From assembly GCA_030765645.1 (NCBI GenBank), contig JAVCCE010000059.1:1-64000 (forward strand): 64,000 nt of DNA. The letters are read 5' to 3'. Both the position numbers and the translations under genes were made by a program. Origin of the DNA: Candidatus Hinthialibacter antarcticus. Lineage in GTDB: Bacteria; Hinthialibacterota; Hinthialibacteria; Hinthialibacterales; Hinthialibacteraceae. Below the pieces are notes generated by a model that saw only the letters and a program-made list of their open reading frames with translations, was not told the origin of the DNA and did not search any database. Below are positions 51,362 to 62,003 of this stretch, in pieces (the first letter of the stretch is position 1; every line of letters begins with the position of its first letter).

Positions 51362-54082
51362 ATGAGATCGACACTTCTTTTCGTTGTCTTGTTGGCGGCG
51401 GCGCTGACGCAATCGGCCTGGGCGCAGATTACCCTGCCGGTTTTTATTCCCGACCCAAACGGGCCGACATTTCTCGAACCGCCGCGCATTGTCTCCATCC
51501 CGCCAGTTAGCGCGCAAAGCGAGTTGGTGGTGAATGATATTTCCAGCGACGGGCGTCTTGAGTTGTTCGCGACGATATTGGGGCAATCGCGCCAGATTCA
51601 AGTCTTGCAGGATTTTGGTAGCGTCGATTTCGGTCTGCGTTTATCGCTGCCGTTGTCGCTTGACCCGGTGAAGATGCTATCCGTCCCGATGGATGGCGAC
51701 GGCGTCAATGATTTGGTCTTGCTCTCCAAATTCTTTAATCAGTCCGGTAACCGCATCGAAATCATTCGTTTTGCCGGCGGCAACCTAAGCCCGGACCAAT
51801 TTGAATTTCAGACGGTGTTTGAGTTTCGCGGCGGCGGGACATTCGAATCCGATTTTTCTCAACTCGCGTCAGGAGACGTAGATAATGACGGCGACGTCGA
51901 TTTGATTTACCACATGGTTTCGTTTGACGCCGGAGAAGATTCTCGAACCTATTTGTTGACGAATTTTGGCAAAGGGCAGTTTGAAGCAAAATTATTAAAT
52001 TTGAAAAACTTGAGTGACCGCAATTTATCGGCGAGTTATTTTCTCATGCGGGATTTAGATTTAGACGACGACTTAGACCTGATCGTATGTTTGAATACCA
52101 ATTTTCAGGGTTTGCCCGCCGATGTGCAGCCCGTGCAAATTTATGAAGGGTTCGGCAATGGCGAGTTTCGCTTCGTCGCGCATTTGTCTTTTCCCTCGTC
52201 TCCGCTCAAGGTAGAAACCGTTCAACTCAATGACGCTTGGCCTGACCTGCTTGTGTTTGATTCAGACTTTACGTCGGAAGCGTCTGTCCATCATTTTCAA
52301 CAAAACGCGCCGTTTCAGTTTCATTTGATTGACACCCAAACCGCCGGGCGCCGGGCAGCTGATATGGCGGTAGCCGATTTCAACCTAGACGGTACGCCTG
52401 AGGTTGTTGTTCCTTTTACTGAATTCTTGCCGGGCGGGGCTGTCGGTAAATTTCGCATCTGGAAGTTTCTTGATCCTTTCTCCGGCGCCAAAGAGTCGCT
52501 TGATATTGAAATGCGTTCTTCGTCGGGCGTGTCGGTGTTTCCTGGCAAAGTCTCGGTGGCGAAAATCAATAATGATGCGTGGCCTGATCTGGCATTTTTG
52601 GGATCACCCTTCACCGGAAACAGCAGCGTGATGGGCGTATTATTACAGAAATTGGTGTTTGTGACTCCAACCCCTGGCGGCTCGTTACCGCCAACCGCGA
52701 CGCCGACGCCTGTGCCAACCGTGACGTCAACTCCCGAGCCGACGGTCACCTCGACGCCTGTACCGACTCTGACCCCAACACCGCCGCCGACGGTCACCCC
52801 GACGCCTGTTCCAACCATGACGCCAACGCCGCCGCCGACTGTCACCTCGACGCCTGTGCCAACCGTGACGCCGACGCCAGAGCCGACGGTCACGCTAACG
52901 CCTGTTCCAACCTCGACGCCAACGCCGCCGCCGACGCCAACGCCGCCGCCGACGGCTACTCCGACGCCCGTACCAACGATGACGCCAACGCCGCCGCCGA
53001 CGGTCACCTCGACGCCGTCCGGGTTTGATCCAAACCGCTTCTTGCAGAGTTTTGTTCGCATTGACCGCTTTGGCAATAAGCGAAGTTGGACCGACATCAC
53101 CGCGACGGATTTTGATCGCGATGGTCAGGATGAATTGGCGGCGGTTTCTGATGATGACGACCGTTTACTGGTGGTGCGTTGGAACGGCGCAGACGAATTT
53201 TCAGATTTCGCTGAACGGGCGATTCAATCCGATCCGGTTTCGATTGCGGTCATGCCGCAAAATCGCAGCCGCTTGGTCGCGGCTGTGCGTCGGGAGCCTC
53301 GTTTGGCGTTCATTGACTATCAACCCGGAAGCGGTTTGCAATTGGTGGACGAGTTCCTGCTGGATGAAGAACCCGCTCGCGTGTTCGCAGCGGATGCGGA
53401 AGGCGACGGCGACGCCGACCTGTTTTCTATCAGCGCGTTTGTGGGACAAATGACAGTCTTCTTGCAACAAGTAAATGGCTTCGATGAAGGCGACGTGAAA
53501 ACCGTTGGAGCAGGCCTCATTGACGCCGATGCGGGCAATGTTCTTGGAGACGCTTCAGCCGAGATCGCCTCTATTTTCTCGAACCGTTCTGAGATGACGC
53601 TGTTTCAGTTAATCGGCGGGCGCTTTTTGTTCCCGGCTATTACCCGAAACATGGGCGCGGCCCCGGGCGCGGTGCGCATCGCAGATTATGACGGAGACGG
53701 TTTCAATGATGTTGCAGGGATGAACCGCAACGGAAATACCATCACGCTTTGGTTGAGCAATACGCTGCAGGGGTTGCAGCAGCGTCTCAATCTGCCTGCC
53801 ATGCGGCCTGCGCGTATGGCAACGGCTGACTTGACGGGCGACGGCGCCGCCGACCTTATCATCAGCCAGTCTGACGGCTCTTCGGTTCGGATTATTGCAG
53901 GCGGTTATTGGGACCAACCAGTCGAGTTCCCAACCGTGCTCTCGCCGCTTGCCGTGACCTCCGGCGATTGGAACCAAGACGGTCGTTTGGATTTCGCCGC
54001 CGCCAGCGACACCCAAGACGCGATGACGATCTATTTGTCGATCCCGCCCGCCAGCGCTGACGATTGGCGCATTCACGAGTAG
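51362..54082 (+). CDS. Secreted FG-GAP/VCBS repeat protein with Thr-Pro linker
   Basis: A 906-residue exported protein. The signal peptide is [22 protein letters not shown]. Residues ~50-435 carry FG-GAP/VCBS blades ([49 protein letters not shown]). A Thr/Pro/Val linker spans ~434-553. A second propeller (~555-900) has [47 protein letters not shown] and [15 protein letters not shown]. The acidic loops bind calcium. It resembles integrin-alpha-like surface proteins of unknown ligand. The start lacks a strong ribosome-binding site. It stands alone, divergent from the DUF2911-like gene. Confidence 0.8.
52663..53020 (+). repeat. In-frame Thr-Pro repeat tract (linker coding)
   Basis: About 360 bp of degenerate tandem units encode words such as PTVTSTP, PTPPPTV and PTPVPT. 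It connects the two FG-GAP propellers. Like the tract at 11527-12095, it yields a spurious long antisense reading frame. Confidence 0.85.
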
Positions 54083-57528: not shown

Positions 57529-57564
57529 CCGATACTTGACGCCGTCAAGTATCGGCGGTAGTAT
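57529..57564 (+). promoter_or_regulatory. Promoter with perfect 27-bp palindromic operator upstream of the Fe-S carrier gene
   Basis: Arms CCGATACTTGACG (57529-57541) and CGTCAAGTATCGG (57543-57555) are perfect 13-bp inverted repeats around one base. TTGACG (57536-57541) lies inside the left arm and TAGTAT (57559-57564) follows at 17 bp, giving a sigma-70 promoter whose -35 box is the operator. The leader is about 95 nt. The likely binding protein is the MarR regulator encoded two genes on. Confidence 0.7.
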
Positions 57565-57664: not shown

Positions 57665-57991
57665 ATGATTACTTTGACCGAAAAAGCAGCCAGTGAAGTG
57701 AAACGGTTGATCGAAGCGCAAAGTTTGCCTGAAGCGACTGCGTTGCGGGTTGGCGTACGGGGCGGTGGATGCTCAGGCCTCAGCTACTCGCTGAACTTTG
57801 ACGCTGAATCAAAAGACAACGACCGCAGTTTCGACTGCAACGGCATTAAGTTGGTGGTTGATTCGAAAAGTTTTCTCTATCTGAGCGGAACGACGTTGGA
57901 TTACGCTGACGGCTTGAACGGAAGCGGATTTACATTTGATAATCCCAACGCAAGCCAAAGTTGCGGCTGTGGTTCCTCGTTCTCTGCGTAA
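57665..57991 (+). CDS. A-type Fe-S cluster carrier (IscA/ErpA/SufA family)
   Basis: A 108-residue protein starting MITLTEKAASEVKRLIEAQS at ATG 57665 behind AAGGAG. An upstream in-frame start would add 20 residues but lacks support. Cysteines at 36 (GGGCSGLSY) and 100/102 (SCGCGSSF) are the three cluster ligands of this family. It carries iron-sulfur clusters from scaffold to target enzymes. No other isc/suf genes are in the window. The MarR gene follows by 21 bp in the same transcript, and the promoter has a strong palindrome. Confidence 0.93.
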   Translation: MITLTEKAASEVKRLIEAQSLPEATALRVGVRGGGCSGLSYSLNFDAESKDNDRSFDCNGIKLVVDSKSFLYLSGTTLDYADGLNGSGFTFDNPNASQSCGCGSSFSA

Positions 57992-58012: not shown

Positions 58013-58621
58013 ATGTCATTACATGATTCGGCGCAATCCACTCTCAGCGAACAACGCACCCGCGATCAATTGACGCGCGGATTGATCTTGTTCGCCGCTT
58101 CGGTGCGTCAAGCGACAAGCGGTGAATCGCTCTCAAAAGAACTGGCCCACCGGGTGACCGAATCGCAGGCGGATGCGCTGCGGTTTTTGGCGATGAATGA
58201 CAACGTGACCATCGGTGAACTTGCGGTTGGGCTAGGGCATACCATTTCAGGCGCCACCAAAGCGGTCAATCGGCTTGAAAAAAATGGATGGGTGGAGCGC
58301 TTGCATGATCCTAACGATCACCGCACCGTTTATGTTCATTTGAAAAATGATGGAAAAGCGCTGGCAGATCAATTGCTGTCGCAAACCGAAGAACGGTTGC
58401 ACCGGATTCTCACAAAACTGCGTCCCGAGACGCTGCATTTGCTGGGCCATGTGATCGAAGATTTTTTGACGGATTCTATCGACGACAAAGATGTTGCGAC
58501 TAAATTGTGCGTTGCATGTGGGTTTGAAGGTGGAATGAACTGCTGCGAGTCGGATGTGAACTGCGTTGTGGCGCGTACGGTTCAGTCGATTGAAATTCCC
58601 GAAACGCTTGTCTCCCGCTAG
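58013..58621 (+). CDS. MarR family regulator with C-terminal cysteine cluster
   Basis: A 202-residue winged-helix regulator. The MarR core spans ~35-140: NVTIGELAVGLGHTISGATK, AVNRLEKNGWVERLHDPNDH and RTVYVHL. After it come five cysteines at 166, 169, 177, 178 and 184 (CVAC, then CC, then C). This arrangement is not part of a standard MarR and looks like an Fe-S or metal site. It is co-transcribed with an A-type Fe-S carrier behind a palindromic operator. I infer cluster-sensing autoregulation, functionally like IscR or SufR. It follows AGGGGG at good spacing. Confidence 0.82.
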   Translation: MSLHDSAQSTLSEQRTRDQLTRGLILFAASVRQATSGESLSKELAHRVTESQADALRFLAMNDNVTIGELAVGLGHTISGATKAVNRLEKNGWVERLHDPNDHRTVYVHLKNDGKALADQLLSQTEERLHRILTKLRPETLHLLGHVIEDFLTDSIDDKDVATKLCVACGFEGGMNCCESDVNCVVARTVQSIEIPETLVSR

Positions 58622-58869: not shown

Positions 58870-59880
58870 ATGACACGAAAACGTATTAGTTTTAGTCAGA
58901 TCGTTTATAAAAGCGCAAAAGTAGATCAAATTGTGCGTACCGCACAGCGTATCGCCAATTCAGGCATGCTGGTTCTAGTTACTGGCGAAGATGGAACGGG
59001 GAAAGAAACGCTTGCGCAGGCGATCCACTTTGCCAGCGACCGTTCTGCGGGGCGCATCGTCTCTGTCAATTGCGCGGCGCTGCCGGATACGCTGTTAGAG
59101 ACCGAACTGTTTGGCCATGAGAAGGGCGCCTTCACCGGTGCGGTGTATTCCCGTAAAGGGAAATTAGAACAAGCCCAAGGCGGGACCCTGTTCTTAGATG
59201 AAATCGGTGAAATGAGCGCAACGACTCAAGCCAAACTGTTGCGCGTTTTGGAAGAAGAAGTGGCGGAACGAATCGGCGGAGGAGAACCCCTCCCCGTTGA
59301 TGTACGAATTATTACCGCCTCCAACCAGAATTTATTATCAATGGTGAAGGACGGCAAATTCCGTCAGGACCTCTACTATCGGTTAAAAGAAGTCCATCTC
59401 GATATTCCACCCTTGCGGGAACGAAAAGAAGACATCCCCGTGTTGGTCGACCATTTTATTCGGGTATATAACAAGCAATATCACAAGACGATTTCCGGCA
59501 TCTCTGATGCGGCGCTTCAATTTTTGATGCGTCACGATTGGCCGGGCAACGTACGTGAGTTGCACCATGTGATTAAATGCGCGGTCTTGATGAACGACGC
59601 CCAAGACATGATCTGGTTGGAGCATATCCCGCTAGACATTCATTTGGCTGAATCGGCCCGCAAATCAGACGATGCGTCTGAAACCAAGGCGGATGAGTTA
59701 CTTGAAATTTTATCGCTGGATGAATCGGAAAAACGTCATATCTTGCGAATTCTCGAGTTTACGCGCTTCAATAAGAGCCAGGCTGCGAATATTTTGAAAA
59801 TATCCCGGCCTACCCTGGACCGGAAAATCGAGAAGTATCAATTGCATAACATTAAAGTTCAAGAAAAAATGAATGCGTGA
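58870..59880 (+). CDS. Sigma-54 interaction domain activator with Fis-type HTH
   Basis: A 336-residue bacterial enhancer-binding protein with no receiver or sensor domain. Walker A is LVTGEDGTGKETLAQ, the sigma-54 loop is GAFTGAVYSRKG, Walker B is GGTLFLDEIGEMS, and the arginine finger region is FRQDLYYRLKEV. A Fis-type HTH ends the chain (NKSQAANILKISRPTLDRKI). It drives RpoN-dependent promoters and may be constitutively active or controlled by partner proteins. The gene is monocistronic. A sigma-54-like promoter in this window (8465-8480) is a possible target, though no upstream binding site was searched for. Confidence 0.92.
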   Translation: MTRKRISFSQIVYKSAKVDQIVRTAQRIANSGMLVLVTGEDGTGKETLAQAIHFASDRSAGRIVSVNCAALPDTLLETELFGHEKGAFTGAVYSRKGKLEQAQGGTLFLDEIGEMSATTQAKLLRVLEEEVAERIGGGEPLPVDVRIITASNQNLLSMVKDGKFRQDLYYRLKEVHLDIPPLRERKEDIPVLVDHFIRVYNKQYHKTISGISDAALQFLMRHDWPGNVRELHHVIKCAVLMNDAQDMIWLEHIPLDIHLAESARKSDDASETKADELLEILSLDESEKRHILRILEFTRFNKSQAANILKISRPTLDRKIEKYQLHNIKVQEKMNA

Positions 59881-60062: not shown

Positions 60063-62003
60063 ATGATGGAACCTAAAAAACTAACCCGATATGTGCTGTC
60101 AATCTCGCTGGGCGTGTTCTCGTTCGCCCCGCTAGATGCGCTTGCGCAATATAATAACTACAGCGGCGGCGGTTATAACCAATATAACCAATCCGGCATT
60201 GGTACGAATAACGGCAACGCCTCCCAATTCAACCGGGCGGGCGGCTATGGCGGTCAGGGCGGTCAATATGGCGGCCAGGGCGGCTACGGCGGTTCCAGCC
60301 AATATGGCGGAAGCAGCGGTTTTGGCGGGGGCAGTTCGTTCGGCGGCGGCGGATTTGGCGGCTCTAGCCGATCAGGCGGTTTTGGCAGTGGTGGTTCGAG
60401 CGGCTTTGGCGGTTCGAGCCGAAGCGGACGCAGCGGACGTAGCGGACGCTCAAGTCGAAACAATAGCTACGGCAATCAGGATTATGGAAATAGCAGTTAT
60501 GGCAACCAGTCTGGCAACAGCCGCAGCCGTGGGCGAGGCCGCAACAGTCAAAATAATTCCGCCAATAACCCCTATGGCGGTCAATTTCAAAATCAAAATA
60601 ACGACCCAAATAATATCGGACAGACTCAGTCGAGCCGTCCGGCAACCGCAAACGCTGGCGCAGCAGCCGGACAGGGCGGGGCGCCGCAAGGCGGCATTCA
60701 AATTCAAGGGACCACAGGCGGCGGCGTTCCAGGACAACCTGGCAAACCCCAACAGAAAAACCGTAAAGCGCAATCAACGGAAACACAGTTCCGTACGCGT
60801 GATTCGGCGATGTTATATTTGAAGCCGTCCCGTTCGGTGAGTGCGCCCAATGAGCCGGTTACCGTTGATGTCATGTTGTCAAACACCGCCCGGGTTGAAT
60901 TTGACGAACTGCGTTTACAACTACGGTTTGACCCCTCAATTGTCAAAGTGGTCCAAGCGGGGGATGACGGCGAATGGGCGGACGCGAAAGCATTGCGCGT
61001 GGTCCCGACCGAAGATGAGCAAACACGGTTGGATGAAGCGAACAACCTCTCAGGCAAAAAAACAAAATTTATTTTAGACCCGGCAAATAATAAATATGAA
61101 GTTACGGCGAACGAAGTCAAAGCCAGCGAAGGCGTCATTGACTTCAAAGTAAACGCTGTTGATAAATCCGGCAGCGATACGGGAATCCTGGCCCGCTTCA
61201 CTGCGATTCCCCAGCCGGGAAACGATATGGTCAGCATCGGGTTTCAGTTTGCGGACGTCTCTAGCACTAAGGTTGCGACGAAAGATTCATTACTTACCTA
61301 TCTCCGCTTAGATGGAAAAGACCAGTTAGGCTCTTCGTATGACCCGGCGGACGGCGTGATTAGTTTGGAAGTCTCGATTCTTGATGGAGATGAGGACCTC
61401 TCCTCCCGCAATCAGATTACCCGCGCGGACCGCGAACGTCGCTTTGACGGCGAAGATGATGGAACCGGGATGGTGCAATTGCACTTGCTCAACCAGGAAC
61501 CAGTCGTCGATGTTGGCGATACGGTTGAAGTGGATGTATATTTGCAAAACCCTGACAATGAAGAATTTGATTCGCTGAGTTTATTGGTTGCGTTTAATCC
61601 CCGGATTTTAGAACCCATTGACGGCGACGAAATCGCTTCAGGAATCAATCTGGATGAGTCGGAAGGCAAGGCGAAATTTTCGTTTGATTTCCCGTTGCTC
61701 AACTCCGTTGACTCTGAAAAAGGCTTAATTGATTTTCGTCGGCGAAGTTTAAATAAATCTGTTTCTCAGCAAGGGGTGGTCGCCACTGTGCGTTTTCGGG
61801 CCGTTCGCCCGACCAAAAAAACTACTTTCCGTATTTTAGTGAATGGCAAAGGCGAAGACCCGACGACAGGCGTCTTTTTCCGTGGACAAGACCGTTTAGG
61901 CGCCTCTATAGACCCGTTTGACGGTTTTACGACAACTTCGATCTCAGTACGTCCAACCATGGCGTATTTAAATAAACTGCGTAAAAGCAGCGGCAACGGT
62001 TGA
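60063..62003 (+). CDS. Secreted Gly-rich protein with two cohesin-like domains
   Basis: A 646-residue protein with a signal peptide (MEPKKLTRYVLSISLGVFSF, cleaved near ALAQ). Residues ~30-185 are glycine-rich (YGGQGGQYGGQGGYG, FGGSSRSGRSGRSG) and flexible. Two cohesin-like beta domains follow at ~245-430 (SVSAPNEPVTVDVMLSNTAR, LQLRFDPSIVKVV) and ~465-640 (VVDVGDTVEVDVYLQNPDN, LLVAFNPRILEP). The ATG at 60063 or 60066 both work. Cohesin-like domains also occur in secretin/pilus partner proteins. The pilMN fusion begins 89 bp downstream, so a role in pilus or secretion-system assembly is likely but unproven. Confidence 0.7.
   Translation: MMEPKKLTRYVLSISLGVFSFAPLDALAQYNNYSGGGYNQYNQSGIGTNNGNASQFNRAGGYGGQGGQYGGQGGYGGSSQYGGSSGFGGGSSFGGGGFGGSSRSGGFGSGGSSGFGGSSRSGRSGRSGRSSRNNSYGNQDYGNSSYGNQSGNSRSRGRGRNSQNNSANNPYGGQFQNQNNDPNNIGQTQSSRPATANAGAAAGQGGAPQGGIQIQGTTGGGVPGQPGKPQQKNRKAQSTETQFRTRDSAMLYLKPSRSVSAPNEPVTVDVMLSNTARVEFDELRLQLRFDPSIVKVVQAGDDGEWADAKALRVVPTEDEQTRLDEANNLSGKKTKFILDPANNKYEVTANEVKASEGVIDFKVNAVDKSGSDTGILARFTAIPQPGNDMVSIGFQFADVSSTKVATKDSLLTYLRLDGKDQLGSSYDPADGVISLEVSILDGDEDLSSRNQITRADRERRFDGEDDGTGMVQLHLLNQEPVVDVGDTVEVDVYLQNPDNEEFDSLSLLVAFNPRILEPIDGDEIASGINLDESEGKAKFSFDFPLLNSVDSEKGLIDFRRRSLNKSVSQQGVVATVRFRAVRPTKKTTFRILVNGKGEDPTTGVFFRGQDRLGASIDPFDGFTTTSISVRPTMAYLNKLRKSSGNG

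Follow-up and report, generated by a model that had tools for sequence, protein, structure and literature searches.

Introduction

To our knowledge, the known regulators of Fe-S biogenesis belong to the Rrf2 (IscR, RirA) and ArsR/DeoR-like (SufR) families. IscR, of the Rrf2 family, is an autoregulated Fe-S sensor that controls Fe-S biogenesis and A-type carrier genes; we propose the same role here for a MarR-family protein that differs from IscR in both Cys motif and operator. SufR, an ArsR/DeoR-type [4Fe-4S] repressor of suf, resembles this protein in combining a winged helix with C-terminal cysteines, but its ligands are C164/C171/C206, whereas a CX2CX7CX6C motif is carried on a MarR domain here.

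Within the MarR family, the cyanobacterial regulator ChlR contains an O2-sensitive [4Fe-4S] cluster (PMC4500134, PMC13421787). The two proteins share the family, and Fe-S sensing is published for ChlR and proposed for the protein described below. ChlR is a 135-aa activator of tetrapyrrole genes with N-terminal Cys18/Cys25, whereas the present protein has four C-terminal cysteines, is a probable repressor and has suf and erpA as predicted targets. The ChlR site, TTMCC-N3/4-GGWAA, is similar in its palindromic layout to the TTGAC-N3-GTCAA element reported here (PMC13421787, PMC4500134). Another MarR-family protein, MexR, controls an efflux pump; its PII site, GTTGACCTTATCAAC, has the form GTTGA-N5-TCAAC, and the accessible part of its description makes no mention of a Cys tail (PMC9892617). 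Searches of the open-access literature turned up no account of a MarR protein that controls suf.

Results

A MarR-family protein with a conserved cysteine tail

The window analyzed is a 64,000-nucleotide stretch of the genome of Candidatus Hinthialibacter antarcticus. Its relevant features are:

57529..57555, no strand assigned: candidate operator palindrome CCGATACTTGACG-C-CGTCAAGTATCGG, with perfect 13-bp arms, 5' of erpA-marR
57536..57564, + strand: predicted sigma-70 promoter TTGACG-N17-TAGTAT, with the -35 element within the palindrome (from sequence)
57665..57991, + strand: erpA/iscA-type gene for an A-type Fe-S carrier of 108 aa (Pfam Fe-S_biosyn, 1.2e-22; NCBIfam ErpA)
58013..58621, + strand: gene for a MarR-family regulator with a Cys tail, 202 aa, ATG start (ORF and Pfam)
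58508..58564, + strand: CX2CX7C(C)X5/6C motif, C166, C169, C177, (C178) and C184 (from alignment)

The 58013-58621 product has a MarR winged-helix DNA-binding domain. Pfam matches to MarR_2 (E 1.9e-13) and MarR (E 7e-12) at residues 49-106 are above the cut-offs, and the top PDB matches are MarR folds. MarR is the best match in the Pfam scan, in which no Rrf2 domain was detected; the SufR model is not among the NCBIfam matches of the protein, and the ChlR-type N-terminal pair C18/C25 is absent. Cysteines 166, 169, 177, 178, and 184 are the only ones in the protein, with none before residue 166. All five lie past the last MarR dimerisation helix, in a C-terminal tail, and the original prediction had correctly placed them beyond the MarR fold.

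Orthologs are present in all six genomes of the source family, a set that includes 'Candidatus Omnitrophota bacterium SURF_12' (contig QZKN01000182.1), where the matches in the other five have 62-76% identity; in the next-best genome, outside the family, the match falls to 26%. Overall, the six orthologs are 57-75% identical. In the alignment, C166, C169, C177, and C184 are unchanged in all six orthologs. Since these proteins have diverged overall, such invariance argues against a chance occurrence of the tail cysteines. Position 178 is a Tyr in SURF_12, and the five-cysteine CX2CX7CCX5C cluster as initially described therefore reduces to a putative ligand set of four, CX2CX7CX6C. The tail alone had no significant match in Pfam. 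AlphaFold2 models of seven sequences gave a good MarR core, with the Cys tail at pLDDT <50 and no usable metal-site geometry.

The conserved tail probably holds an Fe-S cluster on Cys166/169/177/184. The main rival to a cluster is zinc: the protein may control erpA and suf while its four cysteines form a structural or regulatory zinc site, or else a thiol/disulfide switch, with Fe-S status sensed indirectly. CX2C pairs are common zinc ligands, zinc-dependent MarR proteins are known (AdcR/ZitR), and the protein has a sub-threshold AdcR-family match. However, that match (model NF038251) reaches 25.4 bits against a cut-off of 175 and covers residues 47-130, outside the Cys tail. We consider this explanation unlikely, also in view of the regulon and of the distant relatives described below.

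Linkage to an Fe-S carrier gene

The product of the gene upstream of marR scores 119.1 bits against the NCBIfam ErpA model (cut-off, 117), and the Fe-S carrier gene that had been reported as linked is thus genuine. In the window, marR starts 21 bp past the end of erpA, and an ErpA/IscA-type gene is located directly 5' of marR in every one of the six family genomes, at distances of 21-265 bp.

Other genes of the region were also noted. An AAA+ sigma-54 activator that has a Fis HTH and lacks an N-terminal sensor domain is encoded at 58870-59880, and its gene is found 3' of marR in five of the six family genomes. The product of 60063-62003 is a secreted-looking Gly-rich protein with cohesin-type domains, kept beside the marR/sigma-54 locus in several genomes; that of 51362-54082 combines FG-GAP repeats with a long PT-rich linker.

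A palindrome shared by erpA, suf, and radical-SAM promoters

The palindrome at 57529-57555 has TTGAC-N3-GTCAA as its core and TA[C/G]TTGAC-N3-GTCAA[C/G]TA as its consensus. It is conserved on the promoter from which marR itself is transcribed in 6/6 genomes, each time overlapping the -35 element; the -35/-10 spacing in the other five is 16-17 bp. When the six erpA promoters were aligned on the palindrome, pairwise identity was 95% inside it versus 25% and 32% in the flanks. A palindrome conserved amid diverged flanks is a clear footprint of a putative operator.

A pattern search of the six family genomes located a second palindrome locus in each, consisting of two tandem copies 28-31 bp apart, and in all six this is the promoter of the suf operon (sufBCDSU). 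In the genome of the window, the operon comprises, by Pfam, sufB, sufC, sufD, sufS, and sufU together with a gene for a DUF59-type assembly protein. The first palindrome copy at the sufB promoter lies over the -35 element and the second at the -10/+1 region. Some weaker matches converge on one orthologous gene for a B12-binding radical-SAM protein. A weight matrix trained on 18 erpA and suf palindrome sites found a site 5' of this gene in four of the six genomes (18.9-33.7 bits), but not in G001 or G005, and the sister family has none there either. Radical SAM enzymes themselves carry a [4Fe-4S] cluster.

These sites are strong sequence evidence that the palindrome ties erpA, suf, and radical-SAM genes into a predicted Fe-S biogenesis regulon, and the common element on the three promoters gives strong support to the earlier proposal that the MarR protein is connected with Fe-S biology. 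The regulon comprises Fe-S assembly and Fe-S-using genes, and no zinc genes were seen at palindrome sites, which speaks against the zinc reading of the tail. A perfect palindrome in G002 (L088:6778, G002:C47:72777) fits this picture less well: it lies ahead of a gene resembling serine hydrolases, for which no tie to Fe-S is evident.

Few sites were found in eight sister/class genomes and two others. In G011 and G013, which are more distant in the class, suf genes are present, no MarR ortholog was found, and the suf loci have no palindrome site (best, 4.4 bits). G008 has a strong site (26.4 bits) over the promoter of an iscS gene (L101:1499, G008:C512), and a search of this genome for a tailed MarR did not find one. 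The G008 MAG is 94% complete, has 8% contamination, and is split into 810 contigs, so its marR may be missing or the iscS contig may be foreign.

Which protein reads the palindrome

The arrangement TTGA...TCAA recalls FNR sites. In these the spacer is 6; here it is 5, and an FNR-type reading was therefore rejected. The half-site and spacing, STTGA-N5-TCAAS, are identical to those of the PII site of MexR, itself a MarR protein (PMC9892617). A similar palindrome, TAGTTAAC-N3-GTTAACTA, is located 5' of the tailed marR-kor genes of G019 and G306, members of another lineage. Because of the MexR-like geometry, the site on marR's own promoter in all six family genomes, and the palindrome of G019 and G306, we infer that the MarR protein itself reads the erpA and suf palindromes.

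The palindrome could instead be read by an IscR-like Rrf2 protein or another Fe-S regulator, with MarR a passenger in the erpA operon responding to a ligand of its own. Indeed, eight Rrf2 proteins score over the cut-off in the genome of the window, some with three clustered cysteines as in IscR, and the iscS palindrome of G008 occurs where a tailed MarR was not found. However, no member of this Rrf2 set is encoded within 80 kb of suf, the erpA contig carries none of them, and the three observations that point to MarR as the reader all stand against this alternative, to which we give little credence.

Proposed mechanism

We consider it likely that the MarR protein represses Fe-S biogenesis as a dimer, regulates its own gene, and senses an Fe-S cluster in its tail. 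The holo-protein would carry the cluster, most likely [4Fe-4S], on Cys166/169/177/184 and would bind TTGAC-N3-GTCAA at the erpA-marR and sufBCDSU promoters and, in some genomes, at the radical-SAM promoter, blocking RNA polymerase. As with IscR and SufR, iron scarcity or destruction of clusters by oxidants would make the apo-protein leave the DNA, and carrier and assembly genes would then be expressed until clusters are again in sufficient supply. The opposite sign of control, with holo-MarR switching its targets on, has a precedent in ChlR, a known Fe-S MarR that is an activator (PMC4500134). Yet sites over the -35 element and, at sufB, also at -10/+1 form a repressor layout, and we find activation hardly credible here. 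The predicted operator and regulon of the MarR protein are defined and open to direct test.

Tailed MarR proteins in other lineages

With a tail profile, MarR proteins with CX2CX7CX8C tails or close variants were found in G019, G306, G112, G386, G387, G207, G250 (two copies, one with the variant CX2CX7CX9C), and G279. In the first six, the neighbor of the tailed marR gene belongs to 2-oxoglutarate:ferredoxin oxidoreductase and encodes its small ferredoxin subunit. The delta, alpha, beta, and gamma subunits were identified in G019 (korDABC) and delta in G387 and G207; the subunits of G306, G112, and G386 were assigned by sequence similarity. The G279 gene adjoins a gene for a NifS-type cysteine desulfurase. 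Hence, when neighbors of the tail are checked, as had been suggested at the outset, the six kor-linked copies and that of G279 are next to Fe-S genes, but the two G250 copies have no Fe-S gene directly adjacent. The neighborhoods in these lineages extend the tie of tailed MarRs to Fe-S biology, and the adjacency of distant relatives to low-potential Fe-S enzymes is a further argument against zinc. A core-domain tree neither rejected (p-AU 0.31) nor demonstrated a single origin of the tail.

On balance we favor, with somewhat less assurance than the mechanism itself, a new class of Fe-S sensor, in which a MarR protein would carry an intrasubunit cluster on a C-terminal tail of the form CX2CX7CX(6-8)C. 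Such a protein would replace IscR/SufR as the repressor of suf and erpA in the family studied here, and would elsewhere control genes for 2-oxoglutarate:ferredoxin oxidoreductase or cysteine desulfurase. If the tail does bind a cluster, sensing of Fe-S homeostasis also arose on the MarR scaffold. The Cys tail would provide a searchable signature for Fe-S- or redox-sensing MarRs across phyla, one that would reach relatives linked to low-potential ferredoxin metabolism.

Neither the full profile nor the tail profile detected a tailed MarR in viral contigs. Among the matches listed for plasmids (tblastn) there was no CX2CX7CX8C protein; these were other MarRs and a distinct group of plasmid-borne proteobacterial MarRs with a CX2CX4CX2C C-terminal tail (L170:2414-2908, L171:2414-2893, and L172:2378-2920), for two of which (L170 and L171) msrA is nearby. 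Given this separate group, a Cys-rich tail is a design that recurs among MarR proteins. With CX2CX7CX8C tails in several lineages and the plasmid group, MarRs with Cys-rich tails are not as rare as originally thought, and ChlR is already published as an Fe-S MarR. A further plasmid MarR, from Klebsiella and relatives (L166:3995-4417), is encoded beside a YeeE/YedE thiosulfate transporter gene; its tail keeps the first CX2C pair alone and appears truncated.
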